From a virus: a stretch of DNA of 43,341 bases. How positions within the stretch are numbered: position 1 is the first letter of the stretch; the number at the start of each line of letters is the position of its first letter. The position numbers and the translations under genes are program-made. Positions 4,578 through 37,805 of this stretch are shown one piece after another. The notes below the pieces were generated by a model that saw nothing but the letters and a program-made list of their open reading frames with translations, was not told the origin of the DNA and did no database searches. The stretch spans positions 1 to 43,341 of IMG/VR virus record IMGVR_UViG_3300044684_000066; one strand, 5' to 3'.

Positions 4578-5333
4578 ATGGTCGCAGCAGCAATGGTGGC
4601 GACGGCGGTGGTTGGCGCCGCCGTCTCGTCAGATGCATCCCGCAAGTCCGCCAACACCCAGGCCGATGCCGCGCGCAACGCGAATCAACTGGCGCAGAAC
4701 CAGAACGACACGATGCGTTCGGACCTGGCGCCGTATGTCCAGGGCGGTTACGGTGCTCAGTCCCGGCTGAACAACCTCCTAGGCATTGGAAGCCCAACGG
4801 ATCAAACTACCTACGGGCAGTTGACCCGCGGCTTCACCGCCCAGGACTACTTGAACAACCAAGACCCTGGGTATCAGTTCCAGCTTCAACAGGGCCAACA
4901 AGCTCTCCAGAACTCCCAGGCCGCCCAAGGTGGCGTCTTGTCTGGGGCGGCCTTGAAAGACCTGATCAAGTTCAACCAAGGCGTGGCCTCCACCGGCTAC
5001 ACGGATGCCTTCAACCGTTTTCAGACCCAGAACCAGAACACGTATGCGCGCCTGGCGGGGCTCCTTCAAGTCGGTGAAGCTGGGGCGGCCCAACAAGGTG
5101 TCACGGGCGCGAATCTGGCGAACACCAGCACCAACGCCCTCATGAGCCAAGGTAACGCTCTTGCTGCGGGTCAAGTGGGGCAGGCCAACGCCATCTCGGG
5201 CGGCCTCAACAGTGCGGCCGGGTACTACTACCTGAACAACATGGGCAAGGCCAACACCGGCGGCACGTTCACTGGCAATACTGGCTTGGAGGGCATGAGC
5301 CCGGACGAGCTGTCGCAGTTCTACGGCGGTTGA
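4578..5333 (+). CDS. Ejection (DNA transfer) protein, gp7 position
   Basis: A 251-residue Ala/Gln/Asn-rich protein. The N-terminus is a small hydrophobic segment (residues 1-18, Ala/Val), followed by a helical Gln/Asn-rich body with repeated NQ motifs and the 'APYVQGGYGAQSRLNNLLG' segment seen in podoviral internal proteins. Its length (P22 gp7 is about 229) and order before two larger ejection proteins fit the gp7 slot. Such proteins are packed in the head or portal and enter the cell envelope with the DNA. The start is the ATG directly after the GNAT stop. Confidence 0.75.
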   Translation: MVAAAMVATAVVGAAVSSDASRKSANTQADAARNANQLAQNQNDTMRSDLAPYVQGGYGAQSRLNNLLGIGSPTDQTTYGQLTRGFTAQDYLNNQDPGYQFQLQQGQQALQNSQAAQGGVLSGAALKDLIKFNQGVASTGYTDAFNRFQTQNQNTYARLAGLLQVGEAGAAQQGVTGANLANTSTNALMSQGNALAAGQVGQANAISGGLNSAAGYYYLNNMGKANTGGTFTGNTGLEGMSPDELSQFYGG

Positions 5334-5334
5334 G

Positions 5335-6831
5335 ATGCCATTCGATCCTTCCATCCCGCTCCAAGCCACGCCCCCGAGCCTGGATTCGGCGCTCAAGCCG
5401 ATCTCGTCTCTTCTGGGGATCCAGGCCGCTCAACAGCAACTGCAGACCGGCCAACTCCAACAACAGCAACTTGGGGCTCAGCTTCAGGAGCGCCAGAACC
5501 TCTCCCGCATCGACTGGAACCAGTTCCGCGACAAGGACGGCGTTCTAGATCCTGTTGCAGCCGGGAATGCGGCCCTGCGCGCCTCTCCTGCCTTCTATGG
5601 TCCCCAATTGGCGAAGCAGTTCAATGATGTAGCCAAGGATCAGATCACGATCCAGCAGGGCCTTCAGAACTTGAACCGCAGCCAGCGAGAAGACATCGGG
5701 TCTGGTCTTGGTGCCCTGGCGATGGATCCGAACCTGAATCCTCAGAAGCTGATCGACTGGGTTTCGACCTATTCGGAGCAGAACCCCGCAGCTACGAAGG
5801 TGCTGTTGACGGGTCTGAAGCATGTCCCGATGGACGACCCCGAGAAGATGCGGCAAGCCCTCATTACCGCCCGAAACAGCATCCTCCCAGCCACGAGTCA
5901 AGGTGTTAACAACACGCAGATCAACACCGGCAGCCAAACGCTCATCGGTCAAAACAGCCCCTACCAGCCGGGTCCGCTTCAACAGGTCGGGGCGGTGCAG
6001 AACACCATCACCCCCGGTCAGGGGGAAGAGGTTCAAACCGACCAGCTCGGGAACCGCTTCATCGTTCAGCGCGCCCCCAATGGGGCGATTCTGAACACGC
6101 GACCGGTCCCCGGTTCGTACAACGCCGCACAACCCGGCGCCCCCGGTTCCGGTCCGGCAAACCTGCCTCCTGGCGGAAAGGAGCAGATTGGCGCGCTGTC
6201 CGACGAAGTGAATGCAGCCCACGCTGCTGCGAATCAAGCGCCTGTGATGCACGACATCAACCGCACGATCCTCCAACAACTGGACAAGGGCGTGACTACG
6301 GGTATGGCGGGCGGCATCATTGCCCGCATCAAGAGCGCCTATGGTGGCGTGGTGCCTGAAGCTCTTGGCGGCAAGGCAGCGGAGACCGGGGCGTCGGATT
6401 ACGACATCCTCGGCAAGATGCTGGAGCGCTCGGCCCTCACCGCCGCCCAGAGCATGGGTCCTCACACCAATGCGGGACTCGAATCGCAGATCCGCGCGAA
6501 TGGCTCGACTCAGTACAACCCGGACGCCCTAAAGACCATCGCCAAGCTCAACGACGCCCTCACCACCGGATCAGAGCTGTACCGGTCAGGCATGCAGGCC
6601 GCTATTGACAACGCGGGTGGAAGCGTTGCCGCGAAACGGCAGTTCGATCAGGACTGGTCGAAGAACTTCGACGTTCGGGTGATGCGACTTCATAACGCCG
6701 TGGAAGCCAACGACCAGGGCGAGATCAAGTCCATCCTCAATGAGGTTGGCGGGCAAGGCTCCAAGGGCGCCAACGCTCTGATGATGAAGAACCAGGCCCT
6801 TGAGCGGCTGACCAAGACCGGGCACCTGTAA
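5335..6831 (+). CDS. Ejection (DNA transfer) protein, gp20 position
   Basis: A 498-residue protein, close to P22 gp20 (471), in the second ejection slot. Residues 20-60 are a Gln-rich probable coiled coil (QQQLQTGQLQQQQLGAQLQ). The centre (about 190-280) is low-complexity Gly/Pro/Asn/Gln, and the C-terminal 200 residues are helical. It starts one base after the previous stop, and its stop overlaps the ATG of the third ejection gene, so the three are translated together. Confidence 0.75.
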   Translation: MPFDPSIPLQATPPSLDSALKPISSLLGIQAAQQQLQTGQLQQQQLGAQLQERQNLSRIDWNQFRDKDGVLDPVAAGNAALRASPAFYGPQLAKQFNDVAKDQITIQQGLQNLNRSQREDIGSGLGALAMDPNLNPQKLIDWVSTYSEQNPAATKVLLTGLKHVPMDDPEKMRQALITARNSILPATSQGVNNTQINTGSQTLIGQNSPYQPGPLQQVGAVQNTITPGQGEEVQTDQLGNRFIVQRAPNGAILNTRPVPGSYNAAQPGAPGSGPANLPPGGKEQIGALSDEVNAAHAAANQAPVMHDINRTILQQLDKGVTTGMAGGIIARIKSAYGGVVPEALGGKAAETGASDYDILGKMLERSALTAAQSMGPHTNAGLESQIRANGSTQYNPDALKTIAKLNDALTTGSELYRSGMQAAIDNAGGSVAAKRQFDQDWSKNFDVRVMRLHNAVEANDQGEIKSILNEVGGQGSKGANALMMKNQALERLTKTGHL

Positions 6832-9014
6832 TGGCCGACTTCGATGCTGTCAGCGCCCTTTTGTCGGGGCGCGGATCAGACACGCGCGTCTCCCCTGATG
6901 TCCAGGCACAGAGGGACGCGGAACGTGTCCAGATCCTCCGCCAAGAGAGGGCGCAAGCGCTCTCCAGTGGACAGAAGGATGTCGCCGCTGCGGTTGATCG
7001 TGAGATCTCCAGGGTAGGCCCGACTGCTCCTCAGCCTCAACAAGAGGACCCGTTCAGCAAGGTCAACGCGTTGTTATCTGCCTCACCTTCTGGTCCGCAG
7101 CCAACCCAGACTCCGCAGACGGTAGACGGCACCCATCGCTTCACGCCAGCTCAGGAGCGAGAGGGCGAAAGGGAAGTCGCCGCCAACGCGGTCACGGGGC
7201 TGGGCTCATCGATCTACGGCGGATTGAAAGGGCTGCTGAAGGTCGGCACCTCTCTGGCTTCTGGTCAGGGCCTAGACGCCGCACTGAACGCCGGGGCTAA
7301 CACTGTCACGCAGACTCAGCAGGACTACACCTACCAACCCAGGACGGCAGCAGGACAGGACAAGCTGGCAGGGTTCAACTCTGCCTGGAACCCTTTGTCT
7401 CTGCCCGCTCACGTCGGGAATTACCTTGGTGAGAAGACCGCCGACGCGACCGGTAGCCCAGGTCTCGGCGCTGCGGTGAACGCGGGTGTACAGGTTTTTG
7501 GTCCGGCGGCGATGGTCAAGGGTGCAAGGTCGATTGGGGCCAAAGGCATTGAAGCGGCGTCCACTCCTAAAGCTCCGCCGAGGGTTGAGCCGGTGATGGA
7601 AGGTCAACCAAGTCAACTTCCCAACAATCCCTCCCCGACGCTCAACACGACTAGCCCGGCGCAACCTGTCGTCCAAAAGGCAGGGCCTTCCTCACCGGTC
7701 AAGCCTCCCGCGGACAACAGTGTTGTTGTTTCTCCCCAGGAGCAGACGCAGCGGGCGCAAGTCCTGCAACAGATCGGGCTCGACAACGTTCGACGCAGCG
7801 CCATCACCGGCGATGCGAAGGCAGCCGCTACTGACTTCCAGACCTCCAAGCTCGATACGCCTGCAGGCAACTACATGCGGGCGACCCTTGATTCAGAGCG
7901 TCAGGCCCTGGAGAACCATGCCGACAGCATCGTTCAGGGCACCGGCGGCAGCGTGGGGATGGATCAGTCCACCCTCGTCTCCAGAGGCAATGCCATCGTG
8001 GCGCCTTTGGATGCCTACAAAAGCTGGTTCGACAACAACATCAAGACTCTTTACAAGGCGGCAGACGAACGCGCCCAGGGCGTCCCCGCCCCGATGGAGA
8101 ACACGAAGGCTCTGTTGGGTGGGGATCAGGCTGATTTCCTGGGGACGGTTGAGGGCGAGCAGCTTCTAAAAGGGGTTACGGCCCGAATGAAGTCGCTGGG
8201 GATTCTGGGAGATGAGGGAACTTCGGCAACGGTTCAACAAGCCGAGCAGTTGAAGCAGTACCTCAATGACCAATGGACCCCGAGGACTGCGCGTCTCATC
8301 GGCCGGATGAAAGACGCCATTGACGATGACGTGACTTCCGCCGCTGGAGAAGACATCTACCAACAAGCTCGGCAGATGCGGGCTCAGCGGGCGCGAGTTC
8401 TTGATGATCCGGAAGGCGTCTCCAAGGTCATGGACGCCGATCCCAACAATCCGATGAATCGGGCTGTTTCCGTGGAGAAGATTCCCGCTACTGTGGCCGG
8501 GATGTCCTCCGCCCAGCTTCAACATCTGGTGAAAACGCTGCAAGAAGCCCCCCCGGAGATTCAGCCTCAAGCGCAGACGGCCTTGGCTGAGATCAAGGCG
8601 CAGTTTGCGAACAAGCTCGCAGAGACGGGGAAGTCTCAAGCCGGGCAATGGAACGCCAAAGGAGTTCGTTCCTACATTCAGAACAACAACGAACGCCTGT
8701 CCACCGTGTTCTCTCCCGAAGAAATGGGGAAGATCAACACGCTACGCCAGGCGGGGGACATTCTGGTGAAGGACCAGAGCTACCCGGGAGCTGCGATTCA
8801 GGAACACAACCTTGTGCGGGCTGGTGCTATGGGCGCTATCCGCACCGGGGCGGCGGCTGCTGGGGGCGCTGTTGCCGGGCCTCTTGGGTCTGGGGTGGGG
8901 GCGTTCATCGGAGACCGAGCCGCGACGGCCCTGGGAGACAAGGCCTCACTCAATGCGGCGAAGCGGCGTACCGTCCCCATCAGTGACTTCCTCAAGCTCA
9001 ACGAGGGGAAGTGA
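6831..9014 (+). CDS. Ejection (DNA transfer) protein, gp16 position
   Basis: A 727-residue protein in the third and largest ejection slot (P22 gp16 is 609). The N-terminus is disordered (Pro/Gln/Ser to about residue 100). It has a Gly/Ala-rich segment near 120-150 and helical middle regions. Near the C-terminus is a hydrophobic Gly/Ala stretch (AAAAGGAVAGPLGSGVGAF) that could insert into a membrane. The function, helping DNA cross the envelope, is inferred from order and composition. It is the last gene before a terminator and the tailspike, and its 3' end is overlapped by a small antisense reading frame. Confidence 0.75.
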   Translation: MADFDAVSALLSGRGSDTRVSPDVQAQRDAERVQILRQERAQALSSGQKDVAAAVDREISRVGPTAPQPQQEDPFSKVNALLSASPSGPQPTQTPQTVDGTHRFTPAQEREGEREVAANAVTGLGSSIYGGLKGLLKVGTSLASGQGLDAALNAGANTVTQTQQDYTYQPRTAAGQDKLAGFNSAWNPLSLPAHVGNYLGEKTADATGSPGLGAAVNAGVQVFGPAAMVKGARSIGAKGIEAASTPKAPPRVEPVMEGQPSQLPNNPSPTLNTTSPAQPVVQKAGPSSPVKPPADNSVVVSPQEQTQRAQVLQQIGLDNVRRSAITGDAKAAATDFQTSKLDTPAGNYMRATLDSERQALENHADSIVQGTGGSVGMDQSTLVSRGNAIVAPLDAYKSWFDNNIKTLYKAADERAQGVPAPMENTKALLGGDQADFLGTVEGEQLLKGVTARMKSLGILGDEGTSATVQQAEQLKQYLNDQWTPRTARLIGRMKDAIDDDVTSAAGEDIYQQARQMRAQRARVLDDPEGVSKVMDADPNNPMNRAVSVEKIPATVAGMSSAQLQHLVKTLQEAPPEIQPQAQTALAEIKAQFANKLAETGKSQAGQWNAKGVRSYIQNNNERLSTVFSPEEMGKINTLRQAGDILVKDQSYPGAAIQEHNLVRAGAMGAIRTGAAAAGGAVAGPLGSGVGAFIGDRAATALGDKASLNAAKRRTVPISDFLKLNEGK

Positions 9015-12998: not shown

Positions 12999-13226
12999 AT
13001 GAAAGAGATCCTGCGCCAGATGTTCACCGAGACCGACAACGAAACCCACGATGGGGGCAAGTGGGCGGCTGCGCTGATGACTCTTACAGGCCTGGGTCTT
13101 CAGATCTACGCCGTTGTCGGGAATAAGCAAGCCTTCGACATGCAGGCGTTTGGGGTCGGGTGTGGGGCGTTGGCTGCTGGTGTTGGCGCGATGTTGAAGC
13201 TCAAGCCAGAAGCGAAGAAGGAGTAG
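12999..13226 (+). CDS. Holin-like two-helix membrane protein
   Basis: A 75-residue protein with a charged N-terminus (MKEILRQMFTETDNETHDGGKW), two hydrophobic helices (about 23-42 and 47-67) and a basic tail (KLKPEAKKE), the usual class II holin plan. It directly precedes the lysozyme gene; its last codons (AAG GAG TAG) also form the lysozyme ribosome-binding site. An upstream in-frame ATG at 12969 is possible, but 12999 gives the normal length. The holin would time inner-membrane opening. Confidence 0.78.
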   Translation: MKEILRQMFTETDNETHDGGKWAAALMTLTGLGLQIYAVVGNKQAFDMQAFGVGCGALAAGVGAMLKLKPEAKKE

Positions 13227-13228
13227 TA

Positions 13229-13660
13229 ATGGACCGCCGTCAGCAGCTCATCAGCATGGAGGGGTGGTGCCACAAGGCCTACCCGGATCCCAAGACCGGA
13301 GGCGCCCCCATCACCATCGGCGTCGGGCACACCGGCCCAGAAGTGAAGCTGGGACTCGTGTGGGATGATGATCAGATCCTCGCCGCGCTTGAGCAAGACG
13401 AGGCCGAAGCCGAACGTGATGCGCGGGCCGTCTGTCCCTCCTATGACTCGCTTGACGAGTGCAGGCGGGCCGTGGTTTGGAACATGGCGTTCAACATGGG
13501 ACGTGATCGGCTTTCGCACTTCAAGGGCATGTTGTCGGCCATCGCTTCTCAGAACTGGGCCGACGCCGCGAACGCTATGCGAGACAGCCTCTGGTATCAC
13601 CAAGTGCCCAAGCGCGTCTCCAGGCTAGCCCTTCAACTTGAGCTGGGGACCTGGCAGTGA
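13229..13660 (+). CDS. Endolysin, GH24 (T4-type) lysozyme
   Basis: A 143-residue muramidase. The catalytic triad is readable as E11, D20 and T29 in EGWCHKAYPD...PITIGVGHT, with the usual spacing plus three residues. The C-terminal half has the conserved 'RAVVWNMAFNMG' helix and a final 'LWYHQVPKRVSRLALQLELG' segment. No signal peptide or SAR segment is present, so it should need the holin for release. The ATG follows AAGGAG, and the gene overlaps the Rz gene by four bases. Confidence 0.92.
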   Translation: MDRRQQLISMEGWCHKAYPDPKTGGAPITIGVGHTGPEVKLGLVWDDDQILAALEQDEAEAERDARAVCPSYDSLDECRRAVVWNMAFNMGRDRLSHFKGMLSAIASQNWADAANAMRDSLWYHQVPKRVSRLALQLELGTWQ

Positions 13661-23141: not shown

Positions 23142-23348
23142 TCACCGCCACGTCTCCACATCAGCCACGAACCGCAGAAACCACCGCTTGACCTTCCCGA
23201 ACAACCCAAGAGGCGTTTCCTCGACAGGAAGCTGACAAGCGTCTCGGTTGGGGTAACGGCGAGAGTCCTGCCCGCAGTTCCCGGTGCAAGCAGGAACGAT
23301 GTTGCGAAGGGCGTCGTCGTGAACCTGGCGGAATGGATGAACGCTCAT
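23142..23348 (-). CDS. Small phage protein (68 aa)
   Basis: A 68-residue protein (MSVHPFRQVHDDALRNIVPACTGNCGQDSRRYPNRDACQLP...) with three Cys and a basic-aromatic C-terminus (VKRWFLRFVADVETW). Its ATG overlaps the previous stop. No family recognised. Confidence 0.58.
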   Translation of the reverse strand: MSVHPFRQVHDDALRNIVPACTGNCGQDSRRYPNRDACQLPVEETPLGLFGKVKRWFLRFVADVETWR

Positions 23349-23488
23349 GAGAACCTCGCCACAACACAGGCGCCAACCGCCAGAGCTACCGTGATGCCGT
23401 AGAGAAGCCAGCCGACTCGGTTCCGTGTGTAGGAAGGCCGGTAGTAGCCGCCGTTTTCAGTTGCGAAGTCGTACGGGTAGTGCTTCAT
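23345..23488 (-). CDS. Small single-helix membrane protein (47 aa)
   Basis: A 47-residue frame with the ATG at 23488. Its stop (TGA at 23345-23347) overlaps the next ATG. The N-terminus is polar and Tyr-rich (MKHYPYDFATENGGYYRPSY), followed by one membrane helix (about 26-45, VGWLLYGITVALAVGACVVA). It fills the gap between its neighbours exactly. Function unknown. Confidence 0.62.
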   Translation of the reverse strand: MKHYPYDFATENGGYYRPSYTRNRVGWLLYGITVALAVGACVVARFS

Positions 23489-23718
23489 TGCGTGATCGTG
23501 ATGTCGATTCGAGTACCGTCTTTGCAGATAGCTCGTGCGGTGTTTCCTGACCCACTAAAGTCGGCTAGAAATGCCACGCCGCCAGCTTTCTCGCAAAGCT
23601 CTTCGGCGCGCTTCCATACCTCCGGCTTTACAGCGCAGGCAGCCAAAAGTCCGGCCACCGCGCAGGCTACGAAGATCACGACGAAGATCCGGTGATCTGG
23701 AGGCAGAGCGAATTTCAT
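23485..23718 (-). CDS. Membrane protein or lipoprotein (77 aa)
   Basis: A 77-residue protein starting MKFALPPDHRIFVVIFVACAVAGLLAACAVKP, with AGAGGA before the ATG. The hydrophobic segment ends in LLAAC, a possible lipobox with the lipidated Cys near residue 28. The rest is a small soluble domain with two more Cys. It is coupled to both neighbours by four-base overlaps. Probably envelope-located. Confidence 0.66.
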   Translation of the reverse strand: MKFALPPDHRIFVVIFVACAVAGLLAACAVKPEVWKRAEELCEKAGGVAFLADFSGSGNTARAICKDGTRIDITITQ

Positions 23719-23855
23719 TTCGTGCAGTCCTCTTGGTCGCAATTCAACGGAAGGCGGTTCTTCGTCCCCTCGTCAGGATTGCCACCACAGCCGAACACCA
23801 TCGCCACGATCAAACCGATCAAGATGCACATCGCGACTTTGAACAACGGTGTCAT
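23715..23855 (-). CDS. Small lipoprotein (46 aa)
   Basis: A 46-residue frame starting MTPLFKVAMCILIGLIVAMVFGC, a lipoprotein signal with the lipobox VFGC-G, followed by a short polar tail with two Cys (LNCDQEDC). The TGA overlaps the ATG of the next gene. Together with the two genes after it, it forms a run of tiny envelope proteins in the early operon. Confidence 0.62.
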   Translation of the reverse strand: MTPLFKVAMCILIGLIVAMVFGCGGNPDEGTKNRLPLNCDQEDCTK

Positions 23856-24058: not shown

Positions 24059-24597
24059 TTGTTCCTCACTGTTGGTTGGAACTTATGGAGATTCGCTTTT
24101 GCCTTGCAATACGCATCGTGCGCTTCTTGGGCGGTATTGAAATAGCCCAAGTGGACGCTGCTTATCGTGGCGACCCATTTTTTGTTTCGCTTATGCCAAG
24201 TGGCACCCATAAGCCCCGATGTGTTTGATTTCGGGAGTTTCTTGTTTTGGGCGTTCTCAGCGTCCGAGGCCTCTCGAAGATTCAGCAGTCGGTTGTCGCT
24301 GGGATTCCCGTTGATGTGGTCGAGCTGCGACTCCGGCCAGCGACCATGGACATAAAGCCAAGCAAGGCGGTGCGCTTTGTAGAGTCGAAAATCGACCTTG
24401 ATAACCACGTAGCCGTACGAATCCACTGCGCCCGCCTCATCGCCAGCGCGCGCCCTGGGGCCTCTTGAGTGCTTCCAGGTAAAGATCCCGGAATCGGCGT
24501 TGTAATGAAGCAAACGGTGCAGGCGCTCTTGCGATACAACAGGCGCAACGTCAGGCTTTGATGGAAGGGGGCTCTTGCACGGAATCAGCTCGTTCAT
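24055..24597 (-). CDS. HNH endonuclease with AP2-type DNA-binding domain
   Basis: A 180-residue protein with the standard HNH-AP2 plan. The HNH core is YKAHRLAWLYVHGRWPESQLDHINGNPSDNRLLNLREAS, and the C-terminal AP2 domain (about 125-178) reads SGLMGATWHKRNKKWVATISSVHLGYFNTAQEAHDAYCKAK. Enzymes of this type are usually homing endonucleases. Here it is joined to both neighbours by exact ATGA overlaps, as if it has become a settled operon member. Confidence 0.9.
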   Translation of the reverse strand: MNELIPCKSPLPSKPDVAPVVSQERLHRLLHYNADSGIFTWKHSRGPRARAGDEAGAVDSYGYVVIKVDFRLYKAHRLAWLYVHGRWPESQLDHINGNPSDNRLLNLREASDAENAQNKKLPKSNTSGLMGATWHKRNKKWVATISSVHLGYFNTAQEAHDAYCKAKANLHKFQPTVRNK

Positions 24598-24818
24598 ACG
24601 GCCTCCCCGCAGAACTCAGCCACCCAGGCCAGCTCTTCCGCGATGTCTCGATGCGACTTCAGGTGCTTGTTTTTCAGAACACCCTCTCGCAGCGCATCCA
24701 GCACAGCAGCGACTTCCTCTGGATCCACATCAAGCCGAGCCAGCCTGTTCGCCATCTCCACCACTTCATAGCGGACGGTTGACCTGGCGTCGTTCGCTGC
24801 TTCGAGGATTGCGCTCAT
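24594..24818 (-). CDS. First gene of the leftward operon (74 aa)
   Basis: A 74-residue helical protein (MSAILEAANDARSTVRYEVVEMANRLARLDVDPEEVAAVLDALREGVLKNKHLKSHRDIAEELAWVAEF), with AGGAGA before the ATG. It is the first product of the pL transcript, the slot of antiterminator N in lambdoid phages. It lacks the Arg-rich N-terminus of N proteins, so antitermination is not indicated. Function unknown. Confidence 0.65.
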   Translation of the reverse strand: MSAILEAANDARSTVRYEVVEMANRLARLDVDPEEVAAVLDALREGVLKNKHLKSHRDIAEELAWVAEFCGEAV

Positions 24819-24854: not shown

Positions 24855-24883
24855 ACTGTAGCAAACGCTACCGACATGAGCAA
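24855..24883 (-). promoter_or_regulatory. pL: leftward early promoter
   Basis: On the minus strand TTGCTC (24878-24883) and TACAGT (24855-24860) are separated by 17 bases, a good sigma-70 promoter. It points into the leftward operon starting at 24818. Two repressor operators overlap it: one covers the -10 (24858-24871) and one touches the -35 (24883-24896). Confidence 0.72.
24858..24871. promoter_or_regulatory. Operator OL1: GTAGC-N4-GCTAC
   Basis: GTAGCAAACGCTAC is a perfect inverted repeat with a four-base spacer. It overlaps the pL -10 box. It matches the three sites between cI and cro. Confidence 0.75.
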
Positions 24884-24896
24884 GAGCAAATGCTAC
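24883..24896. promoter_or_regulatory. Operator OL2 (one half-site weaker)
   Basis: AGAGCAAATGCTAC keeps the GCTAC half and a partly matching left half. Its centre is 25 bases from OL1. It shares the core AGCAAATGCTACT with the middle site of the right operator (25919-25932). Confidence 0.65.
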
Positions 24897-24967: not shown

Positions 24968-25141
24968 CTAGGCTCGGCCGAGTAGAGCGCGGATCACGCG
25001 CAGGATCAGCCAGCCAGTGCCGTTGATGGTTGCAAGGAACAGGATGGCGATGCCCAGACCCGTGGCGCCGCCTTCACCCGCTCCGATGAGCAGGACGGCC
25101 ATGCAGACCGCGAACCAGAACCAGGACAGTGCTTTCGCCAT
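24968..25141 (-). CDS. Small two-helix membrane protein downstream of cI (57 aa)
   Basis: A 57-residue frame with the ATG at 25141 preceded by AGGAGG, a very strong ribosome-binding site. Two hydrophobic helices (about 5-22 and 28-50) are joined by a Gly-rich turn (GAGEGGATGLG), and the C-terminus is basic (RVIRALLGRA). It starts nine bases after the cI stop and is followed by a terminator, so it should be made together with the repressor in lysogens. That expression pattern suggests lysogenic conversion, for example superinfection exclusion. Family not recognised. Confidence 0.72.
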   Translation of the reverse strand: MAKALSWFWFAVCMAVLLIGAGEGGATGLGIAILFLATINGTGWLILRVIRALLGRA

Positions 25142-25150
25142 GGATCCCTC

Positions 25151-25894
25151 CTAGATGCGCTCGCTCTGCTTGTGGACAACCCGGCCGATGATGAATGTCC
25201 CCTCGTGGACGCGCTTGCGGGGGAATCGACGCTGGTCGGGGTTGTCGCTGACCAGCCACCAGGCGCCCTCGTCTCGCACCAGGCGCTTGATGACCAGCTC
25301 GCCCTCGTAGTTCACAGCGTAGACCGTGGCATCGATAGGCGCGGTGTCAGCGGTGTTGACCACCACCGCATCACCCCCGTACAGACCCGGCTCCATGCTC
25401 TCTCCCGAGACCATGACGGCGAACATCTTGCGCGGGTCGTAGCCGTTGACCGCATACCAGTCTCGGTGAAAGACCATCGGCTTTGCGGTGTTGTCGAGGT
25501 ATTCCACCCCGAAGCCCGACGCGCCAGCGGCGAGCTTGAACTTCACGAGAGGCACGGTTGGATACTCTTGGTTATCTTCCAGCGGGACTTCTGCTGGACT
25601 CCCATTTGTACCCATTGCAGCACGATCTACAAAATCCTGCTGTGCAGAACTGACGAGCTTAAGCTGCGCTTTTGCCGTGATCGGGAGAGAGAACCATCCG
25701 TTGAGCCCCGTCAAGGACTCGATCTTCAGGATCGTGTCTTCCTTCACGGGGCGCTCGCCTCTGAGCATCTGCCCGACGAAGGCGCCGTCTTTGTAACCCA
25801 AGGCGCGGCCCAGGGCGGCCTTGTTCCCCTCGTACTTCTGATTGACGGCGTCTAGTAGTCGCTGGCGACGCCAATCCTGGGTTGGATCCGACAT
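25151..25894 (-). CDS. cI: CI-type phage repressor (HTH + S24 LexA-like peptidase)
   Basis: A 247-residue repressor. The N-terminus carries an HTH (NKAALGRALGYKDGAFVGQMLRGERPV, about 24-50). The C-terminal half is a LexA-type S24 domain with the Ala123-Gly124 cleavage site (KLAAGASG), the nucleophile S166 (SGESMEPG) and K203 (ELVIKRL). Self-cleavage after DNA damage is therefore expected, so the prophage should be SOS-inducible. No ribosome-binding site precedes ATG 25894, and the message may be leaderless. It would bind the GTAGC-N4-GCTAC operators. Confidence 0.93.
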   Translation of the reverse strand: MSDPTQDWRRQRLLDAVNQKYEGNKAALGRALGYKDGAFVGQMLRGERPVKEDTILKIESLTGLNGWFSLPITAKAQLKLVSSAQQDFVDRAAMGTNGSPAEVPLEDNQEYPTVPLVKFKLAAGASGFGVEYLDNTAKPMVFHRDWYAVNGYDPRKMFAVMVSGESMEPGLYGGDAVVVNTADTAPIDATVYAVNYEGELVIKRLVRDEGAWWLVSDNPDQRRFPRKRVHEGTFIIGRVVHKQSERI

Positions 25895-25903
25895 GGCTAT
25901 AGC

Positions 25904-25917
25904 GTAGCAGCCGCTAC
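25904..25917. promoter_or_regulatory. Operator OR, cI-proximal: GTAGC-N4-GCTAC
   Basis: GTAGCAGCCGCTAC is a perfect inverted repeat 10 bases upstream of the cI start. It is well placed to control cI itself. Its centre is 15 bases from the middle operator. Confidence 0.75.
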
Positions 25918-25918
25918 G

Positions 25919-25932
25919 CGAGCAAATGCTAC
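25919..25932. promoter_or_regulatory. Operator OR, middle site
   Basis: CGAGCAAATGCTAC has one full half-site (GCTAC) and one partial half-site. It lies just upstream of the pR -35 box. Its centre is 25 bases from the cro-proximal site. Confidence 0.66.
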
Positions 25933-25960
25933 TTGCAAAGTCGGTAGCAACTGCTACCAT
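25933..25960 (+). promoter_or_regulatory. pR: rightward early promoter
   Basis: TTGCAA (25933-25938), a 16-base spacer and TACCAT (25955-25960) with a TGC extension in front. The predicted start of transcription (about 25967) lies only two or so bases before the cro ATG at 25969. The cro-proximal operator sits across the spacer and -10. Confidence 0.68.
25944..25957. promoter_or_regulatory. Operator OR, cro-proximal: GTAGC-N4-GCTAC
   Basis: GTAGCAACTGCTAC is a perfect inverted repeat (extended to GGTAGC...GCTACC) overlapping the pR -10 box. Binding here would block pR directly. Confidence 0.75.
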
Positions 25961-25968
25961 TGCGGCAA

Positions 25969-26304
25969 ATGGAACTGAACAAGTACCTGCTACAGCCTGG
26001 GTCACTGTCAGTCTCCGAGCTGCGGGAGCGGATCGGGGCCAAGAGTGACGCACAGATACGCCAGTGGCGCCACGCGTACGGCAAGCGTAAGCCGGACCCA
26101 GTGTACGCCGTCCGCATCGAGGCGGCGACCGAGGGCAAGGTAGCTCGCTGGGACCTTCGCAGCGGCGACTGGTTCGAGATCTGGCCGGAACTGATCGGTC
26201 TTCAAGACGCACCCCGTGAGCACAAGGGCAAGGCAATCACTGCGCCTGAAGGTCTTGTCACGTCGAAGCGTCGTCGCCGTTCCACCCACCCCAACAAGGA
26301 GTAG
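25969..26304 (+). CDS. cro: Cro/YdaS-like repressor
   Basis: A 111-residue protein facing away from cI. The N-terminal 70 residues are HTH-like and match the YdaS/Cro group (SVSELRERIGAKSDAQIRQWRHAYGKRKPDPVYAVRIEAATEGKVARWDLRSGDWFEIWPELIG). The tail is basic (TSKRRRRSTHPNKE). No ribosome-binding site precedes the ATG, which lies eight bases after the pR -10 box, so the message is probably leaderless. A TTG at 25960 would add three residues. The last codons (AAG GAG TAG) form the ribosome-binding site of the next gene. Confidence 0.85.
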   Translation: MELNKYLLQPGSLSVSELRERIGAKSDAQIRQWRHAYGKRKPDPVYAVRIEAATEGKVARWDLRSGDWFEIWPELIGLQDAPREHKGKAITAPEGLVTSKRRRRSTHPNKE

Positions 26305-34351: not shown

Positions 34352-35707
34352 GTGCAGCTCACCGCCCGACAACTCCAGGCCCAATCGATTCTGAGCGGGC
34401 CGGCAACTCACTGCATGCTCTTCGGGGGCAGCCGCTCCGGTAAGACGTTCCTGCACTGCCGGAACATCGCGTTTCGAGCGCTCAAAGCTCCAGGCAGCCG
34501 ACACGGCATCTTCCGATTCCGGGCGCTCCACGTTCACGAATCCATCGTCCTGGACACGTGGCCCAAGGTGATGAAGTTGGCGTTCCCTGGGGTGCGGTGG
34601 ACGATGCACAAAGGCGATGGATACGCCACGATTCACACGGGGTCAGAGGATTCCGAAATCTGGTTCTCCGGGCTCGATGACAAAGAGCGCGTAGAGAAGG
34701 TGCTGGGCAAAGAGTTCGCCACGCTGTATTTCAACGAGTGTTCGCAGATCCCGATGGGCTCGGTGGACATCGCAGTGACCCGACTGGCGCAACTGGTCAA
34801 CACAAAGATCCAGGGCAAACCAGAAACGCCGCTGAAGGTCAGGGCGTATTACGACTGCAACCCGCCGTCAAAAGCCCACTGGACCTACAAGCGGTTCATC
34901 GAGAAGCGAGACCCGGAGACGGGTAGGCCGCTCTCGAATCCAGGCGATTACGCATCGTTCCAGATCAACCCGCAGGACAACGCGGAGAACCTGAGCGCGA
35001 ACTACCTCGCGACCCTTCAAGGGATGAGCGCGAGGCTTCAGAAGCGCTTTCTCAAAGGCGAGTTCGCGGATGCGACGCCGAACCAGTTGTTCCCGCCCGA
35101 GACCGTGGACCGTTGGCGAACAGATTCGCTGCCTGACATGGTGCGTGTGGTGGTCGGTGTTGACCCGTCCGGGTCGGGGGATGTGGACAACGCGGACAAC
35201 GATGCGATTGGCATTGTGGTGGGCGGTCTTGGCACTGACGGCAACGCGTATCTGTTGGAAGACTGCACGGCCAAGGCTGGCCCAGCTACTTGGGGCCGAA
35301 TCGCGGTGAACGCCTGGCAGCGACACGACGGTGATTGCATCGTCGGTGAAACGAACTACGGGGGCGAGATGGTGCTTCAGACCATCCGTTCCGCAGCATC
35401 GGCCGAGAGTGTTCGGCCATCGGTCAAGAAAGTCACCGCATCGAGGGGCAAGGTTCAGCGAGCCGAGCCCTTCAGTGCTTTGTACGAGCAAGGAAAGATC
35501 CGCCACGCAGGTGAGTTCAGAGAGTTGGAAGACGAGATGACCGCATTCAGCACCTACGGCTATTTGGGCGAGAACAGCCCGAACCGGGCCGACGCATGGT
35601 TCTGGGTGCTGGCGGAGCTGTTCCCGGGTCTCGTGAAGTCCGCCCCTCAAGAAAAGAAGCCGCCCAAGCCTCGGGTTGTGACCAGCACTTCGGGCTGGAT
35701 GGGTTGA
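34352..35707 (+). CDS. terL: Terminase large subunit (ATPase-nuclease)
   Basis: A 451-residue motor protein starting at GTG 34352. Walker A is GGSRSGKT (25-32), Walker B lies at TLYFNE (about 124-129), and the RNase-H-like nuclease has D271 in VVVGVDPSGSG with further acidic residues in AIGIVVGG... and NRADAWFWVLAELF. Size and motifs fit Sf6/P22-type headful terminases. It couples ATP hydrolysis to DNA entry through the portal and cuts the filled genome. Confidence 0.93.
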   Translation: MQLTARQLQAQSILSGPATHCMLFGGSRSGKTFLHCRNIAFRALKAPGSRHGIFRFRALHVHESIVLDTWPKVMKLAFPGVRWTMHKGDGYATIHTGSEDSEIWFSGLDDKERVEKVLGKEFATLYFNECSQIPMGSVDIAVTRLAQLVNTKIQGKPETPLKVRAYYDCNPPSKAHWTYKRFIEKRDPETGRPLSNPGDYASFQINPQDNAENLSANYLATLQGMSARLQKRFLKGEFADATPNQLFPPETVDRWRTDSLPDMVRVVVGVDPSGSGDVDNADNDAIGIVVGGLGTDGNAYLLEDCTAKAGPATWGRIAVNAWQRHDGDCIVGETNYGGEMVLQTIRSAASAESVRPSVKKVTASRGKVQRAEPFSALYEQGKIRHAGEFRELEDEMTAFSTYGYLGENSPNRADAWFWVLAELFPGLVKSAPQEKKPPKPRVVTSTSGWMG

Positions 35708-35708
35708 G

Positions 35709-37805
35709 ATGAACGTCATCGAAGAAGCCCGCAAGCGCCTGAAGCTCTCGGTCGATGCGGACGGGGAGAATCGCGCCCTCGCGATTGAAGACCTGAAGTT
35801 CGCTTCGGGTGAGCAGTGGCCCGATGAGATTCGGATGCAGCGGCAGCTTGACAAGCGCCCCTGCCTGACGATCAACAAGACGGACACGTTCATTCGTGCG
35901 GTCGTCAACAACATGCGTCAGCAGCGCCCCCGGATCAAGGTGCATCCGGTATCTGATGGCGCTGACGAGAAGGTCGCGGATGTCATTCAAGGCCTGATCC
36001 GACACATAGAGATCAACTCGAACGCGGATCTCGCTTACGACACCGCCGCGGACTATCAGGTGCGGATGGGCTGGGGCTACATCCTCGTCCGCTCCGACTA
36101 CATCTCACCCGACAGCTTCGACCAAGAGCTGTACATCGACCGGATCCGAAACCCGTTCTCGGTGTACTTTGACCCAAGCTCGATCTCTCCTGACGGTTCC
36201 GATGCTGAGTGGTGCATCATCACCGAGCGGATGAAGCGGGAGGCTTTCAAGCAGCAATATCCCCAAGCGGATCCTGTTGACTTCAAGGCCATGGGGGAGG
36301 GCGACGACATTCCTCTGTGGGCGACGAAGGAAGAGATCACCGTCGCCCAGTATTACCGGGTGGTCGAGACCCCCGACATGCTGTGCATGACCACGGACGG
36401 GCGGAAATACTGGAAGAGCCAGTTCCAGGCATACCAGGAATACAAGAACGCCGGCCTGATCGCTGCGGAGCGTGAGTCCATGCGCCGGGCTATCAAGTGG
36501 TCCAAGATCACCGCCAAGGAAGAGCTCGAATCCATCGACCTGAAGGGGAAGTACATCCCCGTGGTCCCGGTGTACGGGGCCGAGCTGGTCATTGATGGGA
36601 AGGTCCAGCGCTTCGGCATGACCCGGCAGTTGAAGGATCCGCAGAAGATGTACAACTTCTGGCGGACCTCCGAGACGGAGGTTGTTGCGCTCGCCCCTAA
36701 GGCCCCCTGGCTTATGGCTGAGGGTCAAGACGAGGGAATGGAAGACGAGTGGGAGACCGCGAACAACCGTTCGTTCTCTCGCCTCAAATACAAGCCCATC
36801 GTTGACGATCAGGGGAATGCTCTTCCGCCTCCGATTCGACAGCAGCCCCAGCAGATCCCGGCGGCCCAGGTGAATGCGGCGATGGCCGCCAGCGAGGACC
36901 TGAAGGCCGTTGCGGGCATGTTCGACCCCGCGCTTGGCGCTGAGGGGAACGAGACCTCCGGGCGGATGGTGGACAGCCGTCAACGGCAGTCGGACCTCTC
37001 CAACTTTCACTTCTACGACAACCTCACCCGCTCGATCCGGCACATCGGAAAGATCCTGCTGGACCTGATCCCCTACTACTACGACACCCAGCGGGTCGTT
37101 CGGATCATCGGTGAGGATGGAGAGCCCGAGTCCGTCACCTTGAACCAACGCCAACTTGATGAGATGGGCGCCGTTCAGAAGGTCCTGAACGACGTTCGGG
37201 TGGGTCTCTATGACGTGGTGATGGACACCGGCCCGGGATATCAGACCCGCAGACAAGAGGCCGCTGCTGGAATGCTCGAAATGCTCAAGACCGAGCTTGG
37301 CAAGCAGATCGGGGCGGTTGCGGGTGATCTGGTGGTGAAGCAGTTCGACATCCCCGGTATTGAGGCTGTGGCAGATCGACTCGCAGCGGCCAATCCCATG
37401 GCGCAGATGGAAAAGCAGCTTCCGAAGGACCTCCCGGACGAGGCCAAGCACGTCATCATGGCCCTCATGGCGCAGCTCAAGCAGGCCCAACAACAGGCCC
37501 AACAGCTCGCGATGGAGAAGCAGGCCCACGTCTTCGGTGAACAGGTCAAACAGCAGGGTAAGTTGGCCTCCGATCAACTGTGGGGCCATGTGGAGCTTCA
37601 GAAGACCCAGATCCAGCAGGACGGCGAGAACCGCCGGACTCTGGCGAAGGAGCATGCGGCCAACGAGCGGAACACCGACGACAACCGCACATGGTTGACG
37701 GTGGACTCGATGAAGGTCCGGGAGGATCGATTCGAGGCCATCTTGGACGCCCACACCGATATCAAGTTGGCGAAGGATCGTCCTCCGCACAACGAACCCG
37801 CCTAG
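35709..37805 (+). CDS. P22-type portal protein
   Basis: A 698-residue protein (P22 gp1 is 725). The N-terminus ALAIEDLKFASGEQWPDE...RPCLTINKTDTFIRAVVNNMRQQRPRIKVHPV is the portal signature of this group. The C-terminal region is Gln-rich and helical (MALMAQLKQAQQQAQQLAMEKQAHVFGEQVKQQGKL), like the barrel of P22 portal. It forms the dodecameric ring for DNA entry and tail attachment. It begins one base after terL and is followed by a terminator. Confidence 0.92.
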   Translation: MNVIEEARKRLKLSVDADGENRALAIEDLKFASGEQWPDEIRMQRQLDKRPCLTINKTDTFIRAVVNNMRQQRPRIKVHPVSDGADEKVADVIQGLIRHIEINSNADLAYDTAADYQVRMGWGYILVRSDYISPDSFDQELYIDRIRNPFSVYFDPSSISPDGSDAEWCIITERMKREAFKQQYPQADPVDFKAMGEGDDIPLWATKEEITVAQYYRVVETPDMLCMTTDGRKYWKSQFQAYQEYKNAGLIAAERESMRRAIKWSKITAKEELESIDLKGKYIPVVPVYGAELVIDGKVQRFGMTRQLKDPQKMYNFWRTSETEVVALAPKAPWLMAEGQDEGMEDEWETANNRSFSRLKYKPIVDDQGNALPPPIRQQPQQIPAAQVNAAMAASEDLKAVAGMFDPALGAEGNETSGRMVDSRQRQSDLSNFHFYDNLTRSIRHIGKILLDLIPYYYDTQRVVRIIGEDGEPESVTLNQRQLDEMGAVQKVLNDVRVGLYDVVMDTGPGYQTRRQEAAAGMLEMLKTELGKQIGAVAGDLVVKQFDIPGIEAVADRLAAANPMAQMEKQLPKDLPDEAKHVIMALMAQLKQAQQQAQQLAMEKQAHVFGEQVKQQGKLASDQLWGHVELQKTQIQQDGENRRTLAKEHAANERNTDDNRTWLTVDSMKVREDRFEAILDAHTDIKLAKDRPPHNEPA

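Follow-up and report, generated by a model that had tools for sequence, protein, structure and literature searches.

The window, i.e. the entire 43,341 nt of viral DNA analyzed here (IMG/VR record IMGVR_UViG_3300044684_000066), carries an immunity region in which a short open reading frame, ORF57, directly follows a repressor gene. The following features were assigned to this region:

24594 to 24818, minus strand: gene that opens the leftward early operon past the left operators, with a start common to the related contig L133 (94% nucleotide identity)
24858 to 24896: left operator cluster, a pair of GTAGCANNTGCTAC-type sites (24858 and 24883) that overlaps PL, the putative leftward early promoter
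24949 to 24931, minus strand: intrinsic terminator downstream of ORF57, 7-bp stem (6 G-C) followed by U6
24968 to 25141, minus strand: ORF57, 57 aa, ATG start, Shine-Dalgarno (SD) sequence AGGAGG, predicted two-helix membrane protein
25151 to 25894, minus strand: CI-type repressor (cI), 247 aa, helix-turn-helix and S24/LexA-like C-terminus, first gene of the lysogenic transcript
25904 to 25957: right operator cluster between cI and cro, three sites at 25904, 25919 and 25944
25969 to 26304, plus strand: Cro-like regulator, divergent from cI (phrog_35, transcriptional repressor, E-value 2.1e-10)

The 57 codons of ORF57 are translated as MAKALSWFWFAVCMAVLLIGAGEGGATGLGIAILFLATINGTGWLILRVIRALLGRA. 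The stop codon TAG of cI ends at 25151 and is followed, after a gap of 9 nt, by the ATG of ORF57, while a perfect AGGAGG overlaps the TAG and is located 5 nt upstream of the ATG. Using a codon model trained on the long genes of the same phage, a log-odds of +9.3 was obtained in the frame of ORF57 and negative values in all five others, and the GC content by codon position (0.63/0.53/0.79) is similar to that of other phage genes. It is very improbable that ORF57 is a chance or decaying frame without function. This explanation draws on the lack of a homologue and on the finding that 16% of random sequences would contain a frame of at least 57 codons starting no more than 24 nt away, but this chance falls to 0.0002 when the perfect SD at its ideal spacing is added, and both the in-frame codon signal and a product type fitting the bias described below speak against it. 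The sequence thus confirms ORF57 as a coding gene after cI, and the distance of nine bases and the AGGAGG site given in the initial annotation were both recovered. The terminator that had been proposed to close the gene is likewise convincing in its form and its stem is conserved in the heteroimmune relative L133, with the 56-nt fold being just 1.3 sd below shuffled sequences.

The assignment of cI was supported by profile matches to phrog_4 (transcriptional repressor, 1.8e-30) and to phrog_6201 (CI-like repressor). Allowing no more than 2 mismatches, five copies of the palindrome GTAGCANNTGCTAC were found in the 43 kb, all of them located in the two clusters, three upstream of cI and two just beyond the terminator; none of 100 shuffled sequences contained five or more. 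Promoter-like sequences overlap the operators, namely TTGCAAAGTCGGTAGCAACTGCTACCAT (rightward) and TTGCTCATGTCGGTAGCGTTTGCTACAGT (leftward). These are alike and were tentatively assigned as PR and PL on that basis; a promoter scan detected no consensus sigma-70 promoter. The plain reading of this arrangement is an OL/PL-OR/PR immunity region with predicted operators that encloses cI and ORF57. Since the GTAGCANNTGCTAC clusters flank the two genes, ORF57 has a predicted operator cluster on either side, which is the arrangement of rexAB in lambda. That ORF57 is on the repressor transcript, as initially annotated, and outside the two predicted lytic transcripts is well supported by its orientation on the same strand directly after cI, ahead of the terminator and between the predicted clusters. 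Together with the comparison of related loci, the operator clusters strengthen the case that ORF57 would be expressed in lysogens.

Three further small genes of the leftward early operon (23345-23855, minus strand) look exported or membrane-bound:

23345 to 23488, minus strand: small gene, one transmembrane (TM) segment
23485 to 23718, minus strand: small gene, lipobox LLAAC
23715 to 23855, minus strand: small gene, lipobox VFGC

For the ORF57 protein, two hydrophobic stretches were found in the hydropathy profile, and AlphaFold, run on the single sequence, predicts a helical hairpin of helices 2-23 and 25-56 (mean pLDDT 83.5), so that the two-helix membrane protein of the initial annotation is retained as a prediction. 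K3 at the N-terminus and R48, R51 and R56 at the C-terminus are positively charged and E23 is located in the turn; by the positive-inside rule, both termini are therefore predicted to be cytoplasmic, with the short E23 loop outside.

No usable homologue of ORF57 was detected in phage records, plasmids, IMG/VR viral contigs or GTDB genome contigs, and matches in the genomes or records of four relatives were at chance level. Neither PHROG nor Pfam gave a match, a Foldseek search with the hairpin returned nothing below an E-value of 1, and none of the known exclusion or defence families match, so by the searches made ORF57 is an orphan. Two viral contig matches with 43% identity (L002/L003) were rejected due to large gaps, an internal stop codon and a filamentous-phage contig, the alignments being driven by the word IGAGEGGA. 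The profile phrog_10328 (E-value 0.061) was discarded as well, as it matches 10 of 14 unrelated control genomes.

The short hydrophobic peptide with its basic tail would also suit a small membrane toxin of an addiction pair stabilizing the prophage. This is the least probable of the functions considered, as an antitoxin gene is not apparent and a toxin would hardly be expressed constitutively together with the repressor from a strong SD. A role as an aid to lysis or lysogeny maintenance, either as an antiholin against a leaky holin or as a Hex-like helper of the repressor, is quite improbable. ORF57 is holin-sized and has two helices, and a precedent exists in Hex of phage 434, a protein of the repressor transcript that blocks RecA-driven cleavage of the repressor (PMC3564112). 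Against an antiholin, ORF57 lies outside the lysis cassette and has no PHROG or Pfam holin match, and the slots of the relatives hold unrelated envelope proteins instead of holin-like ones. The phage has a holin candidate of its own, which is located with the endolysin gene and shows no likeness to ORF57 by eye:

12999 to 13226, plus strand: holin candidate, 75 aa, directly ahead of the endolysin gene
13229 to 13660: endolysin gene, after the holin candidate

Repressor relatives were found at 92 loci in viral and bacterial contigs, plus one in the Variovorax phage VarioGold. The named hosts belong to the Burkholderiales (Rhizobacter, Aquabacterium, Janthinobacterium, Massilia, Duganella and Hydrogenophaga). 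A further 31 loci were obtained from Cro relatives, and cI adjoins in most of them. Across the 92 repressor loci, the position after cI is variable or empty. A closer relative, the contig 3300044765_000070 (L133/L135, one contig), was found through the flanking genes. L133 matches the window at the start of the left operon (94% nucleotide identity), in the terminator (91%) and in the right flank from 26288 (89%). Between these conserved flanks, cro and the repressor both differ from those of the window, and they are accompanied by an ORF of 81 aa and a lipoprotein gene of 91 aa that stops just ahead of the conserved terminator. Since flanks and terminator are kept and the sequence between them differs, the block from the repressor to the terminator has been swapped as a unit, including the gene in the slot after cI. 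The lipoprotein of this heteroimmune module (L133:2608-3686) looks by eye like the slot lipoprotein of L016. Among the other flank relatives, the contig of L134 is broken off before cI, and L136 and L137 have different repressors and no ORF57. L101, the single contig found when phages sharing the operator array were sought, was rejected due to its different immunity region.

For a comparison across loci, the slot gene was defined as the gene that comes next after cI on the same strand, at a distance of -30 to +75 nt, and N-terminal export or membrane signals were predicted by Kyte-Doolittle and lipobox rules on genes from a simple codon-model caller. Slot genes fell into 29 sequence families, and such a signal is present in 23 of these, compared to 39 of 407 other adjacent downstream genes at the same loci (p=1.5e-16), a contrast that is large even for crude gene calls and signal predictions on a non-random sample of loci. 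Lipoproteins account for 9 of the 29 families and 5 of the 407 background genes. With a length-matched, confidently called background, the ratio was 22/28 versus 21/321, and significance was kept under four threshold sets. For the second gene after cI, only 5 of 35 are exported or membrane-bound, and for the divergent neighbour 2 of 20. In many loci, e.g., the Rhizobacter prophages, the slot is empty. From this envelope bias and the swap in L133, ORF57 is one of the genes that occupy a repressor-transcript slot in which envelope genes are exchanged. Such a slot next to cI is known from lambdoid phages, and its strong envelope bias in these Burkholderiales-type phages is a more interesting result than ORF57 by itself.

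Few Pfam domains were found among the slot cargo, namely Rap1a (four proteins) and surface-adhesin E (Adhesin_E, two proteins); the remainder belongs mostly to unnamed PHROGs or has no match. Members of the Rap1a (T6SS immunity) family appear to recur in the slots of L043, L049, L073 and L107, with the loci assigned from their sequences. A search of the other slot genes for defence or exclusion families gave one weak PADLOC match and no others. Many small bacterial membrane proteins tune an envelope protein of the cell, and ORF57 might act in this way in lysogenic conversion, on a host sensor, transporter or protease, to the benefit of the lysogen and without a direct effect on other phages. 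The Rap1a-family and adhesin-E-like proteins and the many lipoproteins in the slots of relatives fit such a broad envelope role. It ranks second after exclusion and is nonetheless rather unlikely, as the characterized genes found in this position are exclusion systems and nothing specific indicates a host target.

In lambdoid prophages, the region between the repressor and N is a site of accessory genes; there, lambda rexAB are lysogen-expressed exclusion genes beside the repressor, and bstA of BTP1, downstream of cI, is transcribed with it from the cI promoter in lysogens (PMC7067206). Like ORF57, rexAB follow cI on the repressor transcript, end before the left operators and include a membrane protein, but they are two genes encoding the four-TM protein RexB and the sensor RexA, and no sequence similarity exists. 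The BTP1 BstA protein is much larger than the ORF57 product and unrelated to it. The genes for gp43 and gp44 of Gordonia phage CarolAnn are cotranscribed with the repressor, include a membrane protein and are a proven phage defence (PMC6426606). These differ from ORF57 as a two-gene system with a four-TM protein, in their hosts and in the lack of a sequence match. In the Streptococcus thermophilus phage TP-J34, the exclusion gene ltp follows the repressor gene downstream and in the same orientation (PMC3952083). Its product is envelope-anchored, but as a lipoprotein rather than a hairpin and in a Gram-positive host; the layout of L133 with repressor, small ORF and lipoprotein resembles this phage. 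ORF57 shares with the cI-linked morons of the lambda type the same-strand location before a terminator, the position between predicted operator clusters and the variability among relatives, and by this comparison it is a new orphan member of an already known kind of gene.

An abortive infection mechanism like that of RexB or CarolAnn gp43, in which an oligomeric channel depolarizes the membrane on sensing another phage, would agree with the membrane product and with a location that corresponds to that of rexAB with respect to cI and the left operators. It ranks third and is clearly unlikely, as ORF57 stands alone between cI and the terminator without a RexA-like sensor, and this single gene with two helices departs from the two-gene, four-TM organization of RexAB and CarolAnn.

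Elsewhere in the window (4578-9014 and 34352-37805), a phrog_598 DNA-ejection protein, a phrog_156 portal protein and a large terminase are encoded, which suggests a virion of the podovirus type. Two large proteins of 498 and 727 aa come next; they have no PHROG match and may be further ejection proteins.

SieA of P22 is an inner-membrane prophage protein that stops DNA entry at the ejection-protein conduit (PMC10883804). It blocks phages with ejection proteins and has the location proposed for the ORF57 product, but with 162-164 aa and three TM segments it differs from the 57 aa and two helices of the latter, and the two show no similarity. Being on the repressor transcript in a slot where envelope genes are swapped, ORF57 probably alters the membrane of the lysogen, most likely by excluding other phages. 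Superinfection exclusion at the inner membrane, as reasonably inferred from the position, is the likeliest reading of ORF57, with a rough probability of 45%, and the exclusion role suggested in the initial annotation is partly supported. It was preferred because rexAB, the CarolAnn genes and ltp are all exclusion genes with expression in lysogens and a corresponding position beside the repressor, because SieA provides a precedent and because the phage of the window encodes its own phrog_598 ejection protein. Against exclusion count the lack of an ORF57 homologue in the collections searched and of a match to an exclusion or defence family, the larger size and three TM segments of known proteins such as SieA, and the Rap1a and Adhesin_E slot families, which are equally consistent with general envelope functions.

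For exclusion, ORF57 would be an accessory gene (moron) occupying the slot that separates cI from the left operator/PL, expressed in lysogens from the transcript of cI itself and separated by the terminator from the repressed leftward operon. Its product, a helical hairpin with both ends cytoplasmic, would be inserted into the inner membrane of the lysogen and could interfere there with the genome entry of another phage, comparable to the action of SieA on ejection proteins. As a tentative extension, the position after cI may, in this group of Burkholderiales-type temperate phages, be a dedicated slot for swappable envelope cargo (lipoproteins, signal-peptide proteins and small membrane proteins) consisting mostly of uncharacterized exclusion factors, in which ORF57 would be among the smallest and would found an unrelated two-helix exclusion family.

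Genes transcribed together with the repressor are expressed for as long as lysogeny lasts and thus shape the contribution of a prophage to its host. A simple rule is suggested by the slot data, namely that the first gene after cI is a source of new envelope-acting prophage genes, probably exclusion proteins. About two dozen unrelated and mostly unnamed families are listed by this rule, and ORF57, if confirmed, would act in exclusion as a single and very small protein.

In many related phages, a member of a soluble protein family (about 91 aa, MLHSIQRLRGVRMAVVLVERRQL...) is encoded directly after cI, often with overlapping start and stop codons (L013, L019, L021, L025-L032, L036, L037, L041, L042, L045, L048, L050 and L057). 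The one member scanned, from L025, had no PHROG match. The tight coupling to cI suggests that this family is a partner of the repressor.
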